Shown: positions 4,456-30,130 of the stretch, in pieces
How positions within the stretch are numbered: the stretch's first letter is position 1
Layout of the letters: each line of letters opens with the position of its first letter
DNA from: Nitrospiraceae bacterium
Lineage (GTDB): Bacteria > Nitrospirota > Thermodesulfovibrionia > Thermodesulfovibrionales > UBA1546
Reading direction: 5' to 3'
DNA length: 32,849 bases
Assembly (NCBI GenBank): GCA_003599795.1
Contig: QZJQ01000027.1
Coordinates: 1 to 32,849 of the forward strand
Notes under the pieces: model-generated
Databases searched by the model: none
Seen by the model: only the letters and a program-made list of their open reading frames with translations
What the model was told of the DNA's origin: nothing
Position numbers and translations under genes: made by a program

Positions 4456-4596
4456 ATGGGAACATATACTACATACCATCCTCACAAGATTAAAAGGAAA
4501 CGGACACACGGCTTCCTTGAGCGCATGAGCTCAAAGGGAGGACGCAAGGTCATTCAAAGAAGAAGGGCAAAGGGCCGAAAGAAACTGGCTGTTTAA
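4456..4596 (+). CDS. rpmH: 50S ribosomal protein L34
   Basis: A 46-residue, very basic protein containing the L34 signature [18 protein letters not shown] and ending in [13 protein letters not shown]34 is a small structural protein of the large ribosomal subunit. The start ATG is preceded by GGAG at a good distance. The N-terminus ([11 protein letters not shown]) is a few residues longer than the common MKRTYQP form. In most bacteria rnpA follows directly; here the next gene is yidD and only 91 bases intervene. Confidence 0.95.
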
Positions 4597-4687
4597 TCTT
4601 TGATTCCTTATCGCAGGCAGGGCTTTACACCTATGAACCTTATTAATAATGTGAGCGGCTCTGATGCATACAGTGCAGGAGTGCAAG

Positions 4688-4909
4688 GTGGGAGATATAA
4701 TTAAAAATATTTTATTAGGGCTTATAAAGCTCTATAAATACGCTATCTCTCCATTACTGCCTGACAGCTGCCGGTTTGTGCCAACCTGTTCTGAATATTC
4801 GGCAGAGGCAATAAAAAGATATGGCGCTGTAAAAGGCAGTTATCTTTCAGTAAAAAGAATACTCCGGTGTCATCCGTTTCATAACGGCGGCTATGACCCT
4901 GTAAGGTAA
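4688..4909 (+). CDS. yidD: Membrane protein insertion efficiency factor YidD
   Basis: Small membrane-associated protein that assists YidC-dependent insertion of inner-membrane proteins. It carries the family signature [17 protein letters not shown] with its cysteines, then [16 protein letters not shown] prefer the GTG at 4688, which has AGGAG at 4677-4681 and begins just before the usual N-terminal amphipathic helix (73 residues). An in-frame ATG at 4664 would add eight residues but has no convincing ribosome site. It is 8 bp upstream of yidC in the same operon. The position normally held by rnpA, between rpmH and this gene, is empty. Confidence 0.92.
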
Positions 4910-4917
4910 ACAGAATA

Positions 4918-6513
4918 ATGGGAACAGAAAAAAGAACATTAATAGCTATAATCTTTTCAATAATCATCCTTCTTGGATGGCAGTTTTTATTTCCGCCCCT
5001 GCCGCAGAAACAGCCGGCAACCGAACAGGTAAAAGAAGAAAAAAAAGAAAGTAAACCTCTGGAGACTGCCAAGCCTGTTTCCATTCCTGTTTCAAAACCA
5101 ACAGCAATGCCTTCAGACGAAAAAGAGGTCAGGATTGAGACAGGCCTTTATTCAGCAACGCTCTCCTCAATAGGCGGTACCATAAAAAAATGGGAATTAA
5201 AAAAGCATAAAGATAAAGATGGGCTGCCTGTGGTCCTTCAGCAGGGACAGAGCGTTTATCAGCCTCTCAGCATAGGCTCTCAAAATAACTTTAATCTTGC
5301 AAGTGTAAATTTCAGAATATCCGGAAGAGACCAGAAACTTGATGAAAATAAAAACACAGGCGCCATTGCCTTTGAATACGCAACCTCTGAATATTCTGTA
5401 AGAAGAACTTACACTTTTTATAATGACAGCTACAAGGTTGACCTTAAGGATGAAGTTGCAGGATTGCCTGAGTACTGGATAACCACAGGCACCGACTTCG
5501 GAATCCATGACAGAAAAGACGAATCAGCGCATCGCGGGCCTGTACTTCTGAAAGACGCAGAGAGGATAGAATTTGACGCGAAAAAACTAAAAGAAACCCA
5601 AAGCTATCAGGGCAGGCTGAGATGGATAGCTCAAGAGGACAAATACTTTTTCTCAGCGATTGTGCCTCTCACACAGATGGATGAGGCAAAGGCATGGAAA
5701 GTTCAGGATGCCTCAGTTATCGCATTCAAGGGCAAATCCGGCATTAATAATTTCATTGTCTACGCAGGCCCCAAAGAACACGACAGCCTCAAAAAATTAG
5801 ATGTGGGGCTTGAGCACATTGTTGACTTCGGATTTTTCTCCATTATATCAAGGCCGTTGTTCTGGCTTATGAAATTCTTTTATAAATTCATGGGCAATTA
5901 CGGATGGGCCATAGTGCTCCTGACAATTGTAACCAGAATTCCCTTTATCCCGCTGATAAATAAGAGCCAGGCATCAATGAAGAAAATGCAGGATATACAG
6001 CCAAGGATGAATGAGATAAAGGAAAAATACAAAGATAAGAAAGACCCGCAGAAGATGCAGAAGGAGATGATGGAGCTTTACAAAAAGCATAAGGTAAATC
6101 CCCTCGGAGGCTGCCTGCCGATGCTCCTTCAGGTTCCTGTGTTCTTTGCTCTCTATACAATACTTTCAATTGCCGTTGAATTAAGAGGCGCGCCGTTCAT
6201 GCTCTGGATAACAGACCTCTCAGGCCCGGACACGCTTTTCGGACATATCCCTTCATGGTTTCCATTGATAGGAGATTTCGCTGTTGGGCCGTTGCCAATT
6301 GCCATGGGCCTCACAATGGTCATCCAGCAGAAGATGACGCCATCGTCTGCCGACCCTGCCCAGCAGAAAATGATGATGCTCATGCCGATTATATTTACAT
6401 TTATGTTTCTTAATTTTGCGTCAGGGCTTGTGCTTTACTGGCTGGTGAACAACCTGCTTTCAATTGCCCAGCAGTTTTATGTGAACAGGAAATTGGCAAA
6501 AGAAAAAGCGTAA
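4918..6513 (+). CDS. yidC: Membrane protein insertase YidC/Oxa1
   Basis: Inner-membrane insertase acting alone or with SecYEG. The 531-residue Gram-negative form has an N-terminal membrane anchor (about 9-28), a charged linker, a periplasmic P1 beta-sandwich domain (about 60-310), and the conserved C-terminal five-helix core (about 325-525). The core carries the IPLINKSQASMKKMQ coiled region, the LGGCLPMLLQVPVFFALY helix and the FASGLVLYW helix. A jag/khpB gene often follows yidC; instead the downstream region holds a toxin-antitoxin pair on the other strand. Confidence 0.96.
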   Translation: MGTEKRTLIAIIFSIIILLGWQFLFPPLPQKQPATEQVKEEKKESKPLETAKPVSIPVSKPTAMPSDEKEVRIETGLYSATLSSIGGTIKKWELKKHKDKDGLPVVLQQGQSVYQPLSIGSQNNFNLASVNFRISGRDQKLDENKNTGAIAFEYATSEYSVRRTYTFYNDSYKVDLKDEVAGLPEYWITTGTDFGIHDRKDESAHRGPVLLKDAERIEFDAKKLKETQSYQGRLRWIAQEDKYFFSAIVPLTQMDEAKAWKVQDASVIAFKGKSGINNFIVYAGPKEHDSLKKLDVGLEHIVDFGFFSIISRPLFWLMKFFYKFMGNYGWAIVLLTIVTRIPFIPLINKSQASMKKMQDIQPRMNEIKEKYKDKKDPQKMQKEMMELYKKHKVNPLGGCLPMLLQVPVFFALYTILSIAVELRGAPFMLWITDLSGPDTLFGHIPSWFPLIGDFAVGPLPIAMGLTMVIQQKMTPSSADPAQQKMMMLMPIIFTFMFLNFASGLVLYWLVNNLLSIAQQFYVNRKLAKEKA

Positions 6514-6597: not shown

Positions 6598-6852
6598 CTA
6601 ATAATGGTATCTTAATTGAGCTATCATTATTTTATCTTCTTCAATTTTATATATAAGGCGATGTTCATTATTAATTCGGCGTGACCAGTATCCGGAAAGG
6701 TTATGCTTTAAAGGTTCCGGCTTTCCAATGCCTTTATACTTATTTTTCTGAATGTCTTTTATTAGTTCGTTAATACGCTTCAGGATTTGTTTGTCAGTAT
6801 TTTGCCAGTAAAGATAATCTTCCCATGCATTTTCTGAAAAAATTAGTTTCAA
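6598..6852 (-). CDS. yoeB: Toxin YoeB (Txe/YoeB-family mRNA interferase)
   Basis: An 84-residue protein with the same length and layout as E. coli YoeB. It contains YLYWQxTDK, the block GKPEPLKHNLSG, then WSRRI and EHRLIY, and ends RYHY. Catalytic residues sit at the E. coli numbers: Glu46, Arg65, His83 with terminal Tyr84. YoeB binds the ribosomal A site and cleaves mRNA there. The ATG overlaps the yefM stop by four bases. All active-site residues are intact, so it is probably functional. It occupies the gap between yidC and mnmE. Confidence 0.94.
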   Translation of the reverse strand: MKLIFSENAWEDYLYWQNTDKQILKRINELIKDIQKNKYKGIGKPEPLKHNLSGYWSRRINNEHRLIYKIEEDKIMIAQLRYHY

Positions 6853-7100
6853 GCTAATAAATCCCGCTCTTTACCTTTGCCCTTTTCAAGTTCCTTAATA
6901 GATTCAATAAGACGTTTAGCATTCTTAGGACTTTGCAAGAGGTAAGCTGTTTCATTAAGTGATTCATAATCTTCTAAAGAAATCATGACGACAGCTTCAG
7001 TTTTTTTGCGAGTTATGACAATAGGATTATGATCGTCACATACCTTTTTCATAGTCTTAGCTAAATCGCCGCGAGCAGACGTATATGTAATTGCTCTCAT
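6849..7100 (-). CDS. yefM: Antitoxin YefM (Phd/YefM family)
   Basis: An 83-residue antitoxin and autorepressor partner of YoeB. The N-terminal Phd/YefM DNA-binding fold (MRAITYTSARGDLAKTM, PIVITRKK, VVMISLEDYESL) is followed by ETAYLLQSPKNAKRL and a charged C-terminal toxin-binding tail, closely tracking E. coli YefM. The GGGAGG ribosome site is strong. Upstream lies a clear promoter overlapped by two TGTACA cores, the operator type bound by YefM-YoeB. The first gene of a two-gene operon with yoeB. Confidence 0.94.
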   Translation of the reverse strand: MRAITYTSARGDLAKTMKKVCDDHNPIVITRKKTEAVVMISLEDYESLNETAYLLQSPKNAKRLIESIKELEKGKGKERDLLA

Positions 7101-9421: not shown

Positions 9422-10036
9422 TTAGTGCGCTGCCGACATCTCAGCTTTTTTGATGGAGCTTTGAAGGTATTCTTTGAACTTGGCAGACACCAGCCATTTA
9501 ATCCCTAATTTTTCAGCCCATTTTATTATTCCCTGGTCTGCCGTTACCAGTAACGCATCAAGCTCCCTTGCAAGCAGGATAAGGTCCACATCTTCCTTGC
9601 TGTCAATAATGCCTTCCCTCAAGGCCTCCCGGTATTTTCTCCTCATGTCCTTAATAATATCTTCTTCGCCTGCTTTTGAAACGCCTCTCACAGCCTTTTC
9701 TGCCACCCTGAGCCCCTTATTAATCCTCTCTCTAATGTCTTCTATAAGTTCATAGAGCAGAAATGCAGGACATGTAAGCTCATGTTTCTTAGGTGGTTTT
9801 TGCTGAAGGTAAACGAGCAGGTCTCCCGATATATTTTCAGGCTGTATGAAATTAAGGAGTTCCTCAAATATGGATGGCGGCATATAGAACTCAAGGTGAG
9901 GAATCTGCGCTGCTAAAGAAAGGAAATTTTCAAGCGCCTCTGTAGGTGTCCTGCCGAAGCTCTCGCGAACCTCAGGATTTACAAAGAGGCTCGTATCCAA
10001 GACCACGGCGCCCTTTTTAAATTTTGCCTGAGCCAT
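9422..10036 (-). CDS. RNA-free ribonuclease P (HARP), PIN-domain 'RNA ligase partner' family
   Basis: A 204-residue PIN-like nuclease of the HARP (homolog of Aquifex RNase P) family, earlier named UPF0278 / RNA ligase partner (MJ0950-type). Members cleave the 5' leader of pre-tRNA without an RNA subunit. Seen here: VVLDTSLFVNPEVRESFG at the N-terminus, FYMPPSIFEEL, a charged helical middle (about 90-140), then IDSKEDVDLILLARELDALLVTADQGIIKWAEKLG. As I recall the Aquifex Aq_880 active site, it is Asp7, 138, 142, 160. Here Asp14, 145, 149, 167 match with a constant offset of seven. The start overlaps the end of lapAB by 20 bp, implying coupling. Whether it is the sole RNase P depends on rnpB and rnpA elsewhere. 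Confidence 0.87.
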   Translation of the reverse strand: MAQAKFKKGAVVLDTSLFVNPEVRESFGRTPTEALENFLSLAAQIPHLEFYMPPSIFEELLNFIQPENISGDLLVYLQQKPPKKHELTCPAFLLYELIEDIRERINKGLRVAEKAVRGVSKAGEEDIIKDMRRKYREALREGIIDSKEDVDLILLARELDALLVTADQGIIKWAEKLGIKWLVSAKFKEYLQSSIKKAEMSAAH

Positions 10037-11330
10037 GAAGTTTGAACGTATATGTATTCCAGTTATTGCAGCTCGGGCATCTGCCGGACCAGTCCTGTGA
10101 TGAGTAGCCGCAGGCTGAACACCAGTAAGGAAGCCGGAACGCTATTTTCATGTCAACAGCTTTTTTGAATTCCACTGCTGCCTTATCGCATTGATTTCGC
10201 CTGAGATAGAGGTCGCCCATTATCTGATAAAGTTCCGGTGACGCCATGCCGCTTGCATCAACATAAGAAAACGTTTCAAAGGCATCATCTATCATCTCAA
10301 GCCTGTAATAGAGTTTGCCAAGCAGAAATCTCAGCGCATGGTTCTGAGGCGTCTTTGACAGGCTGTTCACATAAAGCCTTATGAGCCTTGAAGGTTCCCC
10401 GATGCTTATCAAAAGGTCTTCAAGCCTTGCAAGAACTATCATGGACGCTGTCTGATCATAGCTTTTCTCAAGAAAATCTACGGCATCTTCTGACTCGCCT
10501 TCCCTGAGCATTACCTCGGCAAGCCCTATGTACGCCGGCACAAAATTCACATCCATCTTGAGCAGGGTCTTAAAAAGTTTCTTTGCCTTTTCAATATCCC
10601 CTCGTTCAAGGCTGTAACGGCCGTATTCATACTTATATCCGAGGAGGTTCATCTGCTCTCTCTGACGGTCTTTTTCAGTATGCTCATGTTTCAATATCGT
10701 CTTCTGGACATCAACAAGCTCATCCCATTTTTCATCCCTTTCAAGGATAGCCCTCTTTTTGTAGAGAGCGCTGAGGTTATCGGTATCTATGTCAAGTATC
10801 TTCTCTATGTAATTCAGCGCCTCTGCCCACCTTCCCGTTTTTTCCATCAGGTTTTCAAGAGAGAAAAGCACTTCGGGATTCTGCTGATTGGAAGCAAACG
10901 CCTTGTTATAAAAACCTGTTGCCTTCTGATATTCCTCTTCGGCAGATGCGATGTCTCCGAGCCTTAGCAGCGCGTCAAGATGTTTCGGATCTTCCGCAAG
11001 GATGCCTTCAAGCGATTCCCTTGCTTCATCCTCATTGTGAGCAAGAAGTGCATTCAGCGCCCTTGAATACATCTCCTGAACCCTTGCCTCTTTTTTCTGT
11101 TTGCGCTGATACTGAAGGTTATCTATAAAGCGTTTTGTGTCTCTTATGGTAAATACAATGAGCATCGCAAGCGCTCCTGCAACACTTGAAAAGAGTATCA
11201 GTGCTATCTTGGGAGTCTCATACGCGTCGCCGAAAGGTATCTTGATTGTTGTTATTTCCTGGTTGACATATGCAAAACCGCCAAGCCCGGCAAGAAAAAG
11301 TATGAATATGAATATTGCGATTTTACCCAT
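10017..11330 (-). CDS. lapB: LapA-LapB fusion: TPR heat-shock/LPS assembly regulator
   Basis: A 437-residue inner-membrane protein. The N-terminus (about 1-62) has two membrane helices with a VNQEITTIKIPFG turn as in LapA/YciS (DUF1049). It is followed by a coiled region and many TPR repeats (about 85-390). The end is the LapB/YciM rubredoxin-like knuckle, Cys404-X2-Cys407 and Cys418-X2-Cys421 (context WCSACGY, RCPSCNNW). In E. coli LapB with LapA directs FtsH to degrade LpxC, setting the rate of lipopolysaccharide synthesis; there they are two genes, here one. It implies an LPS outer membrane. Downstream of rsfS by 2 bp and overlapping the HARP gene. Confidence 0.85.
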   Translation of the reverse strand: MGKIAIFIFILFLAGLGGFAYVNQEITTIKIPFGDAYETPKIALILFSSVAGALAMLIVFTIRDTKRFIDNLQYQRKQKKEARVQEMYSRALNALLAHNEDEARESLEGILAEDPKHLDALLRLGDIASAEEEYQKATGFYNKAFASNQQNPEVLFSLENLMEKTGRWAEALNYIEKILDIDTDNLSALYKKRAILERDEKWDELVDVQKTILKHEHTEKDRQREQMNLLGYKYEYGRYSLERGDIEKAKKLFKTLLKMDVNFVPAYIGLAEVMLREGESEDAVDFLEKSYDQTASMIVLARLEDLLISIGEPSRLIRLYVNSLSKTPQNHALRFLLGKLYYRLEMIDDAFETFSYVDASGMASPELYQIMGDLYLRRNQCDKAAVEFKKAVDMKIAFRLPYWCSACGYSSQDWSGRCPSCNNWNTYTFKLHGSGKI

Positions 11331-11332
11331 TG

Positions 11333-11647
11333 TCAGTTATGGCCCTTTCCTTCTGCGTGTATTCTTGGCGCATCAAGCCAGAGTTTTTCAAGCTGATAGT
11401 ATGCCCTTGTTTCTTCTTCAAACACATGAATAATGATATCTCCGTAGTCCATTAAAACCCAGTGGCTGTAATTCAGCCCTTCAATTCCCGCAGGACGAAT
11501 GCTTTTTTTTGAAAAGTCCTCTTCTATTGCTCCGGCAATTGCCCTGACCTGAGTTGTGCTTTCTCCCGAACAGATAACGAAATAATCTGCAATGATGGAC
11601 AATCCTTTCAGCTCAAGGACAAGCACATCCACGGCTTTCTTGTCCAT
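11333..11647 (-). CDS. rsfS: Ribosomal silencing factor RsfS (Iojap family)
   Basis: Binds L14 of the 50S subunit and blocks subunit joining under starvation. The 104 residues from the only ATG show DKKAVDVLVLELKGLSIIADYFVICSG, then YSHWVLMDYGDIIIHVF and YYQLEKLW, all typical. The frame is open further upstream and encodes LIKSKAKALAAAKIA, which matches the usual first helix. A strong GGAGGGGAGG ribosome site lies at 11701-11710, but no ATG, GTG or TTG sits between it and 11647. The true start may therefore be a rare codon (an in-frame ATA at 11687-11689) or a base may be missing. The usual neighbour nadD lies upstream, and lapB follows 2 bp on. Confidence 0.9.
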   Translation of the reverse strand: MDKKAVDVLVLELKGLSIIADYFVICSGESTTQVRAIAGAIEEDFSKKSIRPAGIEGLNYSHWVLMDYGDIIIHVFEEETRAYYQLEKLWLDAPRIHAEGKGHN

Positions 11648-11716: not shown

Positions 11717-11793
11717 GAGTTAAAAGTTAGAAGTAAAAAGTTAAAAGTTCTTAAGCCTGAAACTCTTAATTCTCAACTTTCAACTCTTAACTT
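11717..11793. repeat. Inverted array of AAGTT-type units between nadD and rsfS
   Basis: Two 33 nt arms (11717-11749 and 11761-11793) built of degenerate GTTAAAA/AGTTAGA units. They are complementary at about 24 of 33 positions around an 11 nt loop. The right arm contributes the last codons of nadD (KVKS). No U-run follows on either strand, so it is not an ordinary terminator. Confidence 0.8.
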
Positions 11794-12445
11794 TATAAAT
11801 CTTATGAGTAATTATATAGGATTCAACTTCTTCTGGCAATAGGTTTTTTATGCTTTTGCCGCGTTTTACCATCTTTCTTATGCCGGTTGCCGATACCTCA
11901 ATGGGCGTGATGCGCATCATTATCACTTCCCTCCCGCTCTTTAATTTTGTTTTATACTGCCCGAGTTTTGCGCTATCAAGTTTTTTGAGGATGCTTTTAT
12001 TTATCTTCAGGTACGGCGAAGAGGCAAGTCCTGCGAATTTAAAGGCCGGCCTTGAGACGATAATGAAATCCGCAAGGCTGACAAGCCTCTCAGGCTGCCA
12101 CCAGTTGGGGATGTCAATAAAAGCATCAATGCCGGCTATAAAGTAAAGCCTTGCCCCGGGATAGATACAGCGCAGTTTTTCAATGGTATCTACGGAATAG
12201 GATTTATCTTTCTTTTTGTATTCAATATCAGAAACAGCAAAAAAACGGTTTTTAGATACGGCAAGCTTCACCATCTTATACCTGTGCTTCGCGTCCGCAA
12301 GTTCTGTATCCTTAAGCGGCGGGTTGCCTGACGGCACAAAGATAATCTTATTGAGCCCGAGTTTTTCCCTCACCTCTACTGCGGCAGTGAGATGCCCGTA
12401 ATGAACAGGGTTAAACGTCCCGCCGAATATGCCGAGTTTCATCAT
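11780..12445 (-). CDS. nadD: Nicotinate-nucleotide adenylyltransferase
   Basis: Adenylates nicotinate mononucleotide to deamido-NAD. It opens with KLGIFGGTFNPVHYGHL carrying the nucleotidyltransferase HYGH motif (15-18). It has the substrate segment PSGNPPLK, SYSVDTIEKL, the FIAGIDAF strand and the C-terminal EVSATGIRKMVKRG (ISSTxIR-like) motif. A GAGGG sequence precedes two adjacent ATGs; either could start. The final residues run into the repeat array, which seems to have replaced the original C-terminal codons. Upstream of rsfS, the usual order. Confidence 0.94.
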   Translation of the reverse strand: MMKLGIFGGTFNPVHYGHLTAAVEVREKLGLNKIIFVPSGNPPLKDTELADAKHRYKMVKLAVSKNRFFAVSDIEYKKKDKSYSVDTIEKLRCIYPGARLYFIAGIDAFIDIPNWWQPERLVSLADFIIVSRPAFKFAGLASSPYLKINKSILKKLDSAKLGQYKTKLKSGREVIMMRITPIEVSATGIRKMVKRGKSIKNLLPEEVESYIITHKIYKVKS

Positions 12446-14867: not shown

Positions 14868-16748
14868 ATGCACTATGTAATACTCGGCACAGCAGGACAT
14901 ATTGACCATGGCAAGAGCGCTCTGGTCAAGGCTTTGACAGGCATAGACCCTGACAGGCTGAAAGAGGAAAAAGAACGGGGCATCACGATTGACCTTGGGT
15001 TTGCAGACCTTGTTTATCCTGACGGGCTCACTGTGGGGGTTGTTGATGTCCCCGGGCATGAGAGGCTTGTAAGAAATATGCTTGCAGGCGCGGGCGGCAT
15101 AGATATCGTCGTCCTCGTCATTGCCGCAGATGAAGGCATAATGCCTCAGAGCAGAGAGCATCTTTCAATATGCAATCTTCTTAAAATCAAATCAGGGCTG
15201 ATTGTGATTACAAAGGCAGATCTTGTTGAAGATGACTGGATAAAACTTGTTTCAGAAGAAGTGAAGGATTTTGTGAAGGGGACCTTTCTTGAAGGAGCGG
15301 ATATAATCCCTGTTTCATCAAAGACAGGAAAGAATATAGAACTCCTGAAGGAAAAAATCAGAGAGGTGGCCTTAAAAGTTAAGCCAAAACTTACAAAAGG
15401 ACTCTTCAGGCTTCCGATAGACAGGGTTTTTACTTTAAAAGGATTCGGAACGGTTGTAACTGGCACTGCGATTTCCGGAAGTATTTCTGTTGATGATGCC
15501 GTTGAAATACTTCCCGCAAATATTAACAGCAAGGTGCGTGGCCTTCACAGCCACGGGAAATCTATAAAGACTGCCTATGCAGGCCAGAGGGTTGCGGTAA
15601 ATATTTCTGGCGTAGAGAAAGAGAGCCTCAGCAGGGGCGATGTAGTTGTTTTGCCTGAGAGGTTTTCTACTACAAAGGCAGTGGATGCAAAGATAGAACT
15701 TCTGAAGGATGCTCCTCTATTAAAAAACAGAAGTCTCGTTCATTTTCATTCAGGGACATCCGAGGTGATTGCGAGGATCATACTTTACGACCATGATGAA
15801 CTAAAGACAGGAGAAAGCTGTTTTTGTCAGCTTAGGCTTCAGTCTCCGGTAATCTCAATGTCAGGAGACAGATATATTATAAGAAGGTTTTCGCCTGTTG
15901 AGACAATCGGCGGAGGAGAAATCCTTGACTCTCATCCCGGCAAGAGGAAAAAGGCCGAAGGCATAGAAGATTTGAAGGTTTTTGAAAACGGCTCACTTGA
16001 TGAGAAAATATCCATGAAGATAAAAAAAACCGGTATGAATGGAATGCCGCTTGCGGCATTGGAAGGCTGGATAAATGCGGATGTTCCTGCAGTAAAAGAC
16101 GCTGTAAGATTGTTAAAAGAAAGGAGCATAATCGTTCAATCAGAAGATGCGCTTATCCACAGCGATTTGGTCAATTCAATCAAAGAAGGAATTAACAAAA
16201 TCCTCAATCGCTTCCACAAGCAAAATCCATTAAAGACAGGGATGCCAAAAGAAGAGATAAGAGCTCAGGTAAAGATTGAGCAGAAGATTTTTAATTCTCT
16301 GCTCAACGCCATGAAAGATGTTGTGATAGATAAAGACCTTTTGCGCCTGTCAAGTTTCAGGGTCTCGCTTTCAGAAGTTGATAAAGGCATTGAGACAAAG
16401 ATTCTGAATATGCTTGAGCAGGCAGGGTTTCAGCCTCCTTTAAAGGACGAACTCCTCACAGCCTTCAAGATGCAGCCCAAGCAGCTTGATGATATTCTTA
16501 AACTCATGGCAAAACAGGGAAGTATCGTGAGAATTAATGAAACGATGTATATTACAAAGCCTATTTACGAAAAGATATTTGCTCTGCTTAAAGACTTCTT
16601 CGGCAAGAAAAAAGAGATGACAGTAGCAGAGTTCAGGGACATACTCAATACCTCCCGCAAATACGCCCTCCCTTTTCTTGAATACCTTGACACGCAAAAG
16701 GTAACTATGAGAGTAGGGGATGTGAGGAAATTTTTGTTAAAAGGATAA
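14868..16748 (+). CDS. selB: Selenocysteine-specific elongation factor SelB
   Basis: Delivers Sec-tRNA to UGA codons by binding a SECIS hairpin in the mRNA. The GTPase domain has [45 protein letters not shown] and TKAD. EF-Tu-like beta domains follow (about 175-340). The C-terminal third (about 380-626) is the series of winged helices used for SECIS binding. The 626-residue length is normal. It implies that selA, selC and selD and at least one selenoprotein exist elsewhere; none is recognised in this window. The following lipoprotein gene starts 1 bp after its stop. Confidence 0.95.
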
Positions 16749-16749
16749 A

Positions 16750-18978
16750 ATGTTTTATCTTTGCGTACTAATTGCTGCCTTTTTCATTGCTTCATGTAAT
16801 GGGCAATTTCTATCTCCGGCAAAACCTTCAGCATCCTCCGAAGCAGAATTATATTGCAGCCTGCTTCATGTGCAGAGGGGAGAACATCCTGTTTTAGAGC
16901 CTGTGCCATTTCTTGGAATCCATCTTGCCCCTGAAAAACTGGAGGAATCAGGTTATTCCTGCGCGGAAAACTTTTTTATCAAAGTCCCTGAGGTTATCCG
17001 CGGAACCCCTGCTGAAGAAGCAGGCATAAAAAAAGACGATATTATTCTCTCATTTGGCGGAACCCAAACCTGCAATAATCAGGGGAATGCTGTTGCGCTA
17101 TTCAAGAAAATGATTGAACAGCAGAAAATCGGCTCAGTAGTAAACATAGAAGTCCTGCGCGATAACCAGAGACTCTCACTCAGCGTTAAGCTTGCCGCAA
17201 TGCCGATGCGTCAAAATGAAGAAGCAATTCATCCCGGCATTGAGAATTGTCCGGGTCAAATTTCCAAACTTGAGAATAATATTCACGCCAGAAATGCGCA
17301 TCCTTTATTCAATAAAATTTTTGATGGCTTATATCACCGGTCAAATGCTATTCATAATTTCGGATGGCCGTATGAAAAAGAATACAACAGCCTTCAGTTA
17401 AAAGAGATTACTTACATTATGCGGCATCCCTTGTCCGCAGGAGCAGTTGCAAAGGGAATGTCCCGAAATATCACTGCGCCTATTCATGATTATGACTGGC
17501 GCATGGAGAATATATTAAAAACGTCTGCACATTTTCTTGATATTGAAATAAATAACCCTGACAGCTCTGTTGAGATAACCTTCCCTGAATTAATCAGGGT
17601 AATGGAATTAACAAAAAATAAGGTTGAGCAGACATTAAGCAATCTGACCTCCGAAGAACGGGCGCTTTTCAGGGCAAAGGCATTAAAGCCGTGGATGGAC
17701 GAGCAATGGAACAGCATATTAGAGATTTCCATGAAAATAGACCGTAAAAAACTATTTGATGCATTCTTGCCTCTTATGCATTTTTTAACGCGCGATAATT
17801 TATCTGTTTTGAGAGGGGATATTGCCATGCGTTTCGGACATAACAAAAAGGCAATATTATATGAAGCTATGACCCCGATAGGGAAGGTGATAGTGGGCGG
17901 AGAAGGAGCCAATGTTTATAAAAAAGATGCAGCCCTGATTATTGATTTGGGCGGCGATGACCTGTATCTTAATAACGCGGGCGGAACAAGAGAAGGAATG
18001 CCTGCAGCGCTTGTGGTTGATTTTAGCGGCAATGACCGTTATGTCAGCAAGGATAATTTTTCCCAGGGAGCCGGAGTTCTGGGAGGAGGTTTTCTTTTAG
18101 ACCTCGGAGGCAATGATACATTCGTCTCATTGGACGGCAGCCAGGGAGCAGGGTTCTGGGGAATCGGTATTTTATATCATGGCGACGGGAACAGTGTTTT
18201 GAATTCAAGGAGCTTTTCTCAGGGAACAGCTCAGATGGGGTTAGGAATTGCTATAAATGGGAGGGGCGACAGCAAATATTCCTGTTTATACGGAGGACAG
18301 GGCTATGGCCTTTTCGGAGGGGCAGGCATTTTGATAGATAAAGCCGGAAATGATTACTACCATCTGGGCGGCCTTGAATCCGACTTTCGCGATCCGTTAA
18401 AAGCCACACAAAGCATGGGGCAGGGTTTTGGGCACGGCATAAGACCGGCAAATGGGATTAATGGAATTCCGGGCGGCATCGGAATTCTTGCGGATGAGCA
18501 AGGCAATGATATATACATTGCGGATTATTTTGCACAAGGGTCCTCTTACTACTATGGCCTGGGCATATTGCATGATAAATCAGGAAATGACCAGTACATT
18601 TCAGGCAGGTATTCGCAAGGCGCAGGGATTCATTCAACAGCAGGCGTTCTTATTGATGAAAAAGGGGATGATTCTTATTATGCCTCATTCGGCGTTGCTC
18701 AAGGACTGGGTCATGATTTTGGCATAGGATTTTTTGAAGATGCTCAAGGAAACGATAAGTATTGGGGAGGGACTCTGGTTCAGGGCGCGGCAACAAACAA
18801 AAGCATCGGGATATTTATAGACATGCAGGGGGATGATGAATATACATTCACCACTGACGGACAAGGCCATGCCTCTGATGACAGCGGAATGGGAGTTATG
18901 ATAAAAGGGATATCACCCGGCAGTTATATAAACAGTGATTTGAATGATGAGGTTATCAAGCTGGGCGTAAATCAGTAG
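16750..18978 (+). CDS. PDZ-domain lipoprotein with about eleven 27-residue 'GNDxY/QG' repeats
   Basis: A 742-residue protein I cannot assign to a named family. A signal with lipobox IASC (Cys16) predicts a lipoprotein. Residues about 50-150 form a PDZ domain (FLGIHLAP, VIRGTPAEEAGIKKDDIILSFGG). A helical middle (about 165-370) follows. From about 395 to 715 there is a solenoid-like array with consensus GIGILxDxxGNDxYxxxxxxQGxG. GxDxY/F cores fall at 401, 427, 454, 505, 533, 585, 612, 639, 667 and 694, with a degenerate one near 478, spaced 24-28 residues (one double step of 52). Acidic GND/GDD turns could bind calcium. It follows selB by one base and its 3' end overlaps aroB by 23 bp, convergently. 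Confidence 0.85.
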   Translation: MFYLCVLIAAFFIASCNGQFLSPAKPSASSEAELYCSLLHVQRGEHPVLEPVPFLGIHLAPEKLEESGYSCAENFFIKVPEVIRGTPAEEAGIKKDDIILSFGGTQTCNNQGNAVALFKKMIEQQKIGSVVNIEVLRDNQRLSLSVKLAAMPMRQNEEAIHPGIENCPGQISKLENNIHARNAHPLFNKIFDGLYHRSNAIHNFGWPYEKEYNSLQLKEITYIMRHPLSAGAVAKGMSRNITAPIHDYDWRMENILKTSAHFLDIEINNPDSSVEITFPELIRVMELTKNKVEQTLSNLTSEERALFRAKALKPWMDEQWNSILEISMKIDRKKLFDAFLPLMHFLTRDNLSVLRGDIAMRFGHNKKAILYEAMTPIGKVIVGGEGANVYKKDAALIIDLGGDDLYLNNAGGTREGMPAALVVDFSGNDRYVSKDNFSQGAGVLGGGFLLDLGGNDTFVSLDGSQGAGFWGIGILYHGDGNSVLNSRSFSQGTAQMGLGIAINGRGDSKYSCLYGGQGYGLFGGAGILIDKAGNDYYHLGGLESDFRDPLKATQSMGQGFGHGIRPANGINGIPGGIGILADEQGNDIYIADYFAQGSSYYYGLGILHDKSGNDQYISGRYSQGAGIHSTAGVLIDEKGDDSYYASFGVAQGLGHDFGIGFFEDAQGNDKYWGGTLVQGAATNKSIGIFIDMQGDDEYTFTTDGQGHASDDSGMGVMIKGISPGSYINSDLNDEVIKLGVNQ

Positions 18979-29140: not shown

Positions 29141-30130
29141 TTAATTTTCTCTTTCGTAATCCTCTTTTGTCTTGGAGAATATCATCCTGCCAGCTGTTGT
29201 CTGGAGGACACTTGTCACGGTAACATCAACATTTTTGCCGATAAGCCTCTTGCCGTTCTCTACAACAACCATTGTGCCGTCATCAAGATATGCAACTCCC
29301 TGGTTATGCTCCTTCCCTTCTTTGATGACAAATAGTTTTATGGTTTCGCCCGGAAGCACAACCGGTTTCAGGGCATTTGCAAGCTCATGTATGTTCAGGA
29401 CGGACACTCCCTGAAGTTCGGCAATCTTATTGAGATTAAAGTCATTGGTTATTACTTTTGCGTCAAGCAGCCGCGCAAGCGCCACAAGCTTTGAATCAAC
29501 CTCTTTTATCTTCGGGAAATCCTCATCAACTATTTTCACGGTCACGTTGGACATCTTCTGGAGCTTGTGGAGGACATCAAGCCCGCGTCTTCCCCTCCCC
29601 CTCTTCAGAGGGTCCGGAGAATCCGCAATATACTGAAGTTCCTGCAGGATAAACTGAGGAGTAATAAAGGTCCCCTCTATAAACCCCGCTTCGCACACGT
29701 CGGCAATACGGCCATCTATTATCACGCTTGTGTCAAGCAGTTTAAGGTTCTCCTCAATCCCCTGTCCCCTAAAAAGCCTGAGTATGCCTGATATTGTAAG
29801 CCCTTTGCCGCGCCTTAGCCCTATCAGCAATCCCGTATACCCGAATAATGCATTCAGGAGAAATGCCGTAGTCAAATAATCATGAACAATTGCCTTCAGC
29901 GGGAATAGCACCAGATTTGCAAACAAAAGGCCTACTGAAAGGCCGAATATTCCGCCAATCACAATTCCTATGGAAATTTTTTTAAGAACAGTCTCCGTAA
30001 AAAGGGCCAGAGCGCCGGCTGCTGCGCCCCATACAGCGCCTATAACCTGCGAATCATATTTACTGCCAAGCAGATAACCTGCCATTAAAAAAACTGCAAA
30101 TACAGCTATCCTTAAAATAATAAAAATCAT
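29141..30130 (-). CDS. Membrane PIN-TRAM domain protein (YacL family)
   Basis: A 329-residue integral membrane protein. Four hydrophobic helices (about 3-21, 28-46, 53-73, 83-105) precede a PIN nuclease-fold domain (about 128-245, Asp133 in LLDTSVIIDGRIAD, acidic cluster DSKLVALARLLDAKVITNDFNL) and a C-terminal TRAM-type beta barrel (about 262-320). Homologues often sit next to ispD, as here, but their substrate is not established. The AGGAGG ribosome site at 30139-30144 is strong. First gene of the ispD-ispF-truB run. It is a second, unrelated PIN protein besides the HARP. Confidence 0.9.
   Translation of the reverse strand: MIFIILRIAVFAVFLMAGYLLGSKYDSQVIGAVWGAAAGALALFTETVLKKISIGIVIGGIFGLSVGLLFANLVLFPLKAIVHDYLTTAFLLNALFGYTGLLIGLRRGKGLTISGILRLFRGQGIEENLKLLDTSVIIDGRIADVCEAGFIEGTFITPQFILQELQYIADSPDPLKRGRGRRGLDVLHKLQKMSNVTVKIVDEDFPKIKEVDSKLVALARLLDAKVITNDFNLNKIAELQGVSVLNIHELANALKPVVLPGETIKLFVIKEGKEHNQGVAYLDDGTMVVVENGKRLIGKNVDVTVTSVLQTTAGRMIFSKTKEDYEREN

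Follow-up and report, generated by a model that had tools for sequence, protein, structure and literature searches.

Few ribozymes are kept as widely as the RNase P RNA, and the rpmH-yidD junction normally holds rnpA. In the stretch of DNA analyzed here (the window; 32,849 nucleotides), rpmH and yidD lie close together, and a PIN protein is encoded on the opposite strand. A sequence-only reading of the window had proposed that, in this lineage, the RNA-protein form of RNase P gave way to an RNA-free one. We asked whether this proposal holds for the host genome and its relatives, and what history of gains and losses could have produced such a replacement.

The PIN protein belongs to the HARP family

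The PIN protein, for which the earlier reading had named no strand, lies on the minus strand.

9422..10036, minus strand: HARP, or Aquifex RNase P homolog (PIN_5/TIGR03875), 204 amino acids, identified with Pfam and TIGR profiles and phmmer

By its sequence, the open reading frame (ORF) running from 10036 to 9422 is a HARP, a known protein-only RNase P. It matched PF08745 (PIN_5) with an E value of 3.3e-60 (203.4 bits against a cut-off of 27) and TIGR03875 with an E value of 2.8e-61 (206.6 bits against a curated cut-off of 95.3). A phmmer search against solved chains returned 7E8K as the best match (E = 1e-68), and every one of the best seven HMMER chains with a structure is named RNA-free ribonuclease P. 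The closest solved structure is that of PbHARP from Planctomycetes bacterium GWF2_40_8 (7E8K, 7E8O; PMC9051087), which is 60% identical over 185 residues without gaps, while Aq_880 of Aquifex aeolicus (7F3E; Nickel 2017, as relayed in PMC10941002) is 46% identical and carries the same four aspartates. Database relatives of the protein come from Nitrospirota MAGs labelled Nitrospiraceae, Thermodesulfovibrionales, or Thermodesulfovibrionia.

Asp14, Asp145, Asp149, and Asp167 of the window protein align with Asp7, Asp138, Asp142, and Asp160 of Aq_880, which are required for nuclease activity, and Arg132, Arg136, and Arg140 correspond to Arg125, Arg129, and Arg133, part of a basic site in the helical domain that contacts the tRNA elbow (PMC8405995). 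The Aq_880 positions given in the earlier reading agree with that publication; the constant offset of seven that it described is the net offset at all four residues, with small compensating indels in between. All four aspartates and all three arginines are invariant in the 63 HARPs found in the class to which the window belongs. Given a PIN_5 E value of 3e-60 and the retention of the four aspartates in 63/63 class HARPs, the match is not due to chance.

By homology to Aq_880 and PbHARP, the window protein would be a PIN nuclease that depends on metal ions and is built up from dimers. Its helical spike would bind the pre-tRNA elbow through arginines, and the 5′ leader would be cut in the Asp14/145/149/167 site of another HARP subunit. 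Cleavage of pre-tRNA 5′ leaders has been examined for several HARPs, PbHARP among them, and PbHARP has been solved with pre-tRNA (7E8O; PMC9051087); it is reported to be a dimer in vitro. No pre-tRNA cleavage was seen with four recombinant HARPs from other bacterial species (PMC12153264), so that family membership is no guarantee of activity; however, the HARP literature describes those species as also having the RNA enzyme (PMC6380272 for Gammaproteobacteria). We nevertheless consider it highly probable that the window organism uses its HARP for pre-tRNA 5′ cleavage.

Pre-tRNAs that end in CCA are reportedly cleaved ~10-fold more slowly by Hydrogenobacter HARP (PMC12153264). From this one would predict that HARP-dependent genomes adapt by dropping encoded CCA, but most HARP-only genomes still encode it and have as many CCA-ended tRNA patterns as RnpA genomes do. 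The exceptions are family f5 (Thermodesulfovibrio-type) and genomes G132 and G160, where 3 to 6 matches to the CCA-ended tRNA pattern were counted versus 20 to 53 in most others; these lineages seem to be without encoded tRNA CCA ends.

The rpmH-yidD junction has closed up

4456..4596, plus strand: rpmH (ribosomal protein L34), translated as 46 residues
4597..4687, plus strand: collapsed rpmH-yidD junction without rnpA, with no RnpA-like frame
4664..4909, plus strand: yidD (PF01809, E = 1.5e-32), with an alternative start at GTG 4688
4918..6513, plus strand: yidC (PF02096 and PF14849), completing the rpmH-yidD-yidC order

The gap between rpmH and yidD measures 91 nucleotides, as originally described, if yidD starts at GTG 4688, and 67 nucleotides if it starts at ATG 4664. 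None of the frames in this gap resembles RnpA, bearing out the claim that the junction holds no RnpA fragment. Across the class, 2 to 193 nucleotides separate the rpmH stop from the yidD core in HARP-only genomes versus 307 to 436 nucleotides in genomes with RnpA, and the two ranges do not overlap. The junction was collapsed in every HARP-only genome examined, while an intact RnpA ORF occupied it in 25/25 RnpA genomes. A short gap and HARP co-occur across the 79 genomes with a measurable junction, the sole exception being G146, which is discussed below.

Downstream of yidC, between it and mnmE, the window carries a YoeB toxin/YefM-type antitoxin pair (6598 to 7100, minus strand; PF06769, E = 1.5e-39; PF02604, E = 1.3e-23).

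The RNA enzyme was not found in the host genome or its congeners

The host genome (G000) is a Thermodesulfovibrionia-type Nitrospirota MAG of 63 contigs and 1.4 Mb that is 75% complete; the window is its contig 10. Searches of this genome found no match to RnpA (PF00825) and nothing over threshold for RNase P RNA (RF00010), while the same searches were positive in bacterial controls. Since a quarter of the genome is missing, the argument from absence rests on its relatives. HARP was present in three congeners (G104, 99% complete; G126, 100%; G215, 93%), and neither RnpA nor RF00010 was found in any of them. G014, a HARP-only genome from another family assembled as a single, 100% complete contig, was likewise without rnpA and rnpB. 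The RNA search used the bacterial class A model, and all RNA-bearing relatives have class A. Replacement of the RNA enzyme by HARP in the window's lineage, as the sequence-only reading had supposed, is thus supported by the absence of both components from the host and from congeners that are 93 to 100% complete.

HARP and RnpA are nearly exclusive across the class

Among 246 genomes of the phylum, 63 carried HARP over the cut-off and 175 carried RnpA; only two (G190 and G228) carried both. All 63 HARP genomes belong to the window's class, whose 80 genomes divide into 54 with HARP only, 23 with RnpA only, two with both, and one with neither. The presence of rnpB follows that of rnpA: RF00010 was positive in 24/80 genomes, at 169 to 304 bits, comprising both dual genomes and 22 of the 23 RnpA-only genomes, and it was detected in 0/54 HARP-only genomes, about 34 of which were searched again with laxer filters. 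Sister genomes within the same families gave strong matches to both RnpA and rnpB.

Two genomes depart from these patterns. In G223 (family f9), the rpmH-yidD junction holds RnpA as usual, and no rnpB was recovered by covariance model, by laxer filters, or by blastn with the rnpB of a relative; either an assembly gap or an insertion-bearing RNA could account for this. G146, which is 100% complete, has neither enzyme by family search, and its 54-nucleotide junction is collapsed like those of its HARP relatives. No lapB was found in it either, although this gene precedes HARP in these relatives. Given the collapsed junction and missing lapB, the assembly probably has a gap at the HARP locus, and the idea of a third form of RNase P in G146 was set aside.

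The rnpB tree was used to ask whether contamination explains the two dual genomes, the RnpA tree being too short to resolve their positions, and it spoke against this. The rnpB of G190 grouped with families f6 and f11 and that of G228 with f9; since both branch with their species-tree neighbors, we take these genes to be native. The rnpB of G190 (locus L128) sits on a long branch (1.03 versus a median of 0.31), which might fit an RNA under relaxed constraint.

Gene neighborhood of HARP and its occurrence with an RNA ligase

In the window, HARP is flanked by lapB and mnmE, and the gene order is nadD-rsfS-lapB-harp.

10017..11330, minus strand: lapB (TPR and Zn_ribbon_LapB; PF18073 and TPR repeats)
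11333..11647, minus strand: rsfS (PF02410, E = 1.4e-32), next upstream of lapB
11780..12445, minus strand: nadD-like nucleotidyltransferase (PF01467, E = 2.9e-24), at the head of the row

The lapB gene lies directly upstream of HARP, with the HARP start overlapping its 3′ end by 20 bases. The same arrangement, with lapB directly upstream on the same strand, occurs at most of the 63 HARP loci of the class, including those of the deep families f15, f17, and f19, and rsfS precedes lapB-harp in several families as well.

Elsewhere in the window, only two bases separate the gene for the selenocysteine elongation factor SelB from the next one, which encodes a 742-amino-acid PDZ protein (14868 to 18978, plus strand), whose repeated GGND-type motifs lie beyond the PDZ domain in a part without a Pfam match. 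The window also encodes another PIN protein, which carries a TRAM domain (29141 to 30130, minus strand; PF01850, PF01938) and is unrelated to HARP.

An Rnl3-type RNA ligase (TIGR01209) was found in 15/80 class genomes: both dual genomes, 13 of the 54 HARP-only genomes, and none of the 23 RnpA-only genomes. It adjoins HARP wherever contigs allow a view. TIGR01209 had no match in the host genome, its genus, or its family, where no HARP-RNA ligase pair was therefore found. In a survey published in mBio, 89% of HARP genomes had the ligase (PMC12153264); the adjacency it described is shared here wherever the ligase occurs, while the frequency in our set is 15 of 56 HARP genomes. The low frequency among HARP-only genomes qualifies the published linkage between HARP and ligase. 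As a suggestion drawn from few independent events, the ligase may accompany the dual state and be lost after HARP takes over.

Is HARP the only RNase P of the host?

Two explanations would leave HARP with a lesser role. If the RNA enzyme were present and had been missed, because the MAG is incomplete or because rnpA and rnpB have diverged past detection, HARP could be an accessory enzyme. The 75% completeness of the host genome and the undetected rnpB of G223, an RnpA genome, are consistent with such an oversight; however, the three nearly complete congeners and all 54 HARP-only genomes lack both components, sister genomes in the same families give strong matches to RnpA and rnpB, and the junction is intact in the assembly and closed up exactly where RnpA relatives hold rnpA. 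We regard this explanation as very improbable. An equally small chance may be given to the idea that HARP acts mainly in some other RNA-processing or repair role with Rnl3, tRNA 5′ maturation being achieved otherwise. Co-occurrence of HARP with a Pab1020-type ligase in most surveyed HARP genomes (PMC12153264), together with the adjacency of the two genes in 15/80 class genomes, is what such a role would lead one to expect, but the window's genus and family do without the ligase, as do 41 of the 54 HARP-only genomes, which have kept HARP with an invariant active site. Moreover, with RnpA and rnpB absent, some enzyme must mature tRNA 5′ ends. We hold with high confidence that the 204-amino-acid protein is a HARP serving as the organism's only RNase P and that rnpA and rnpB of the ribonucleoprotein enzyme were lost in the window's lineage. 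The most economical history is a dual ancestor of the class followed by losses of one enzyme or the other. The sequences themselves show the homology, the conserved sites, the missing RnpA and rnpB, the collapsed junctions, and how the enzymes are distributed on a tree; enzymatic activity in this organism, its reliance on HARP alone, and the dual ancestor are inferred.

Probable repeated loss of the RNA enzyme within one class

We mapped these patterns onto a midpoint-rooted species tree, which was built from 24 proteins of the ribosomal operon in 78 genomes. With no regain allowed, the tree requires nine losses of rnpA, or six when branches below an SH-aLRT of 95 are collapsed. In all six independent pairs separated by supported branches, rnpA and rnpB differ jointly (median pairing, p = 0.03). 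HARP differs in the opposite direction in four of these pairs and shows no difference in the other two, too few for significance. These results suggest at least six completed swaps from RNA to protein within this single class, two of whose genomes still carry both enzymes.

The position of HARP behind lapB in most members, deep branches included, suggests a dual ancestor that resolved repeatedly to one enzyme. Such an ancestor would have carried HARP next to lapB, and its descendant lineages would then have shed the RNA enzyme at least six times and HARP at least four times. The alternative is that HARP was not ancestral and spread between lineages by repeated horizontal transfer, in which homologous recombination often placed it behind lapB and the RNA enzyme was replaced each time. 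Several observations fit transfer: in the HARP tree, f12 and G211 group with f2 and f4, and a constraint holding f1, f12, and f13 together was rejected; the HARPs of G211 and f4 adjoin the RNA ligase, at a distance from lapB; and RnpA genomes retain no HARP remnant behind lapB, which fits just as well if those lineages never had HARP at that position. In the family of G211, whose other members carry RnpA, G211 alone is HARP-only, and from the location of its HARP we infer that it gained the gene recently and then lost the RNA enzyme. Since the placements of f12 and G211 contradict the species tree, the history has not been vertical throughout. Most families are nevertheless intact in the HARP tree and match the species tree, and the class-level families f15, f17, and f19 are split from all order-level HARPs. 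The tree of the neighboring LapB broadly follows the ribosomal tree as well, with f8 placed with f6 and f11, f1 and f13 near f9 and f10, and f15, f17, and f19 apart. We therefore favor a dual ancestor with later transfers. Spread by transfer throughout is possible, though we give it distinctly less weight. We lean, with some reservation, toward a class ancestor that carried both enzymes in an unstable state, which was resolved by at least six ribonucleoprotein losses and at least four HARP losses as a replicated natural experiment, with the ligase tied to the dual state and dispensable once HARP had taken over.

Relation to known systems and significance

Much of the groundwork for this picture is already published, namely, HARP itself, the Aquifex junction (PMC10941002), and HARP-only Nitrospirae (PMC6380272, PMC8266387). 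The Aquifex genome resembles the window's host in having neither rnpA nor rnpB and in its reduced rpmH-yidD-yidC order (PMC10941002). Unlike Aquifex, which belongs to another phylum, the host has its HARP following lapB and has close relatives that keep the RNA enzyme or both. HARP-only members of the same phylum without RnpA were reported by Daniels et al. 2019 (PMC6380272; cited in PMC8266387). In their accessible portions, however, these two surveys use RnpA as the marker and tally genera, do not consider RNase P RNA, junctions, or a tree, and give no dual intermediates or loss count for Nitrospirae. In the literature searched, to which subscription papers (parts of the primary HARP literature among them) did not belong, Thermodesulfovibrio or Nitrospirae appeared together with HARP only in PMC6380272, PMC8266387, PMC10941002, and the ligase paper PMC12153264, and we found no class-wide tally combining RNase P RNA, junctions, dual intermediates, and a loss count.

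The organism that carries the window almost certainly trims its tRNAs with a small protein enzyme and not with the near-universal catalytic RNA. The field has yet to settle why Aquificaceae gave up RNase P RNA (PMC10941002, PMC12153264). Since close relatives within the window's class are RNA-only, protein-only, or dual, the class provides replicates of the swap, and these allow one to ask what precedes or follows it, including the ligase, CCA encoding, and non-tRNA RNA substrates. The two dual genomes are a natural place to seek a division of labor between the enzymes. If the dual state was indeed resolved repeatedly, the class would constitute a replicated natural experiment in the passage from ribozyme to protein.
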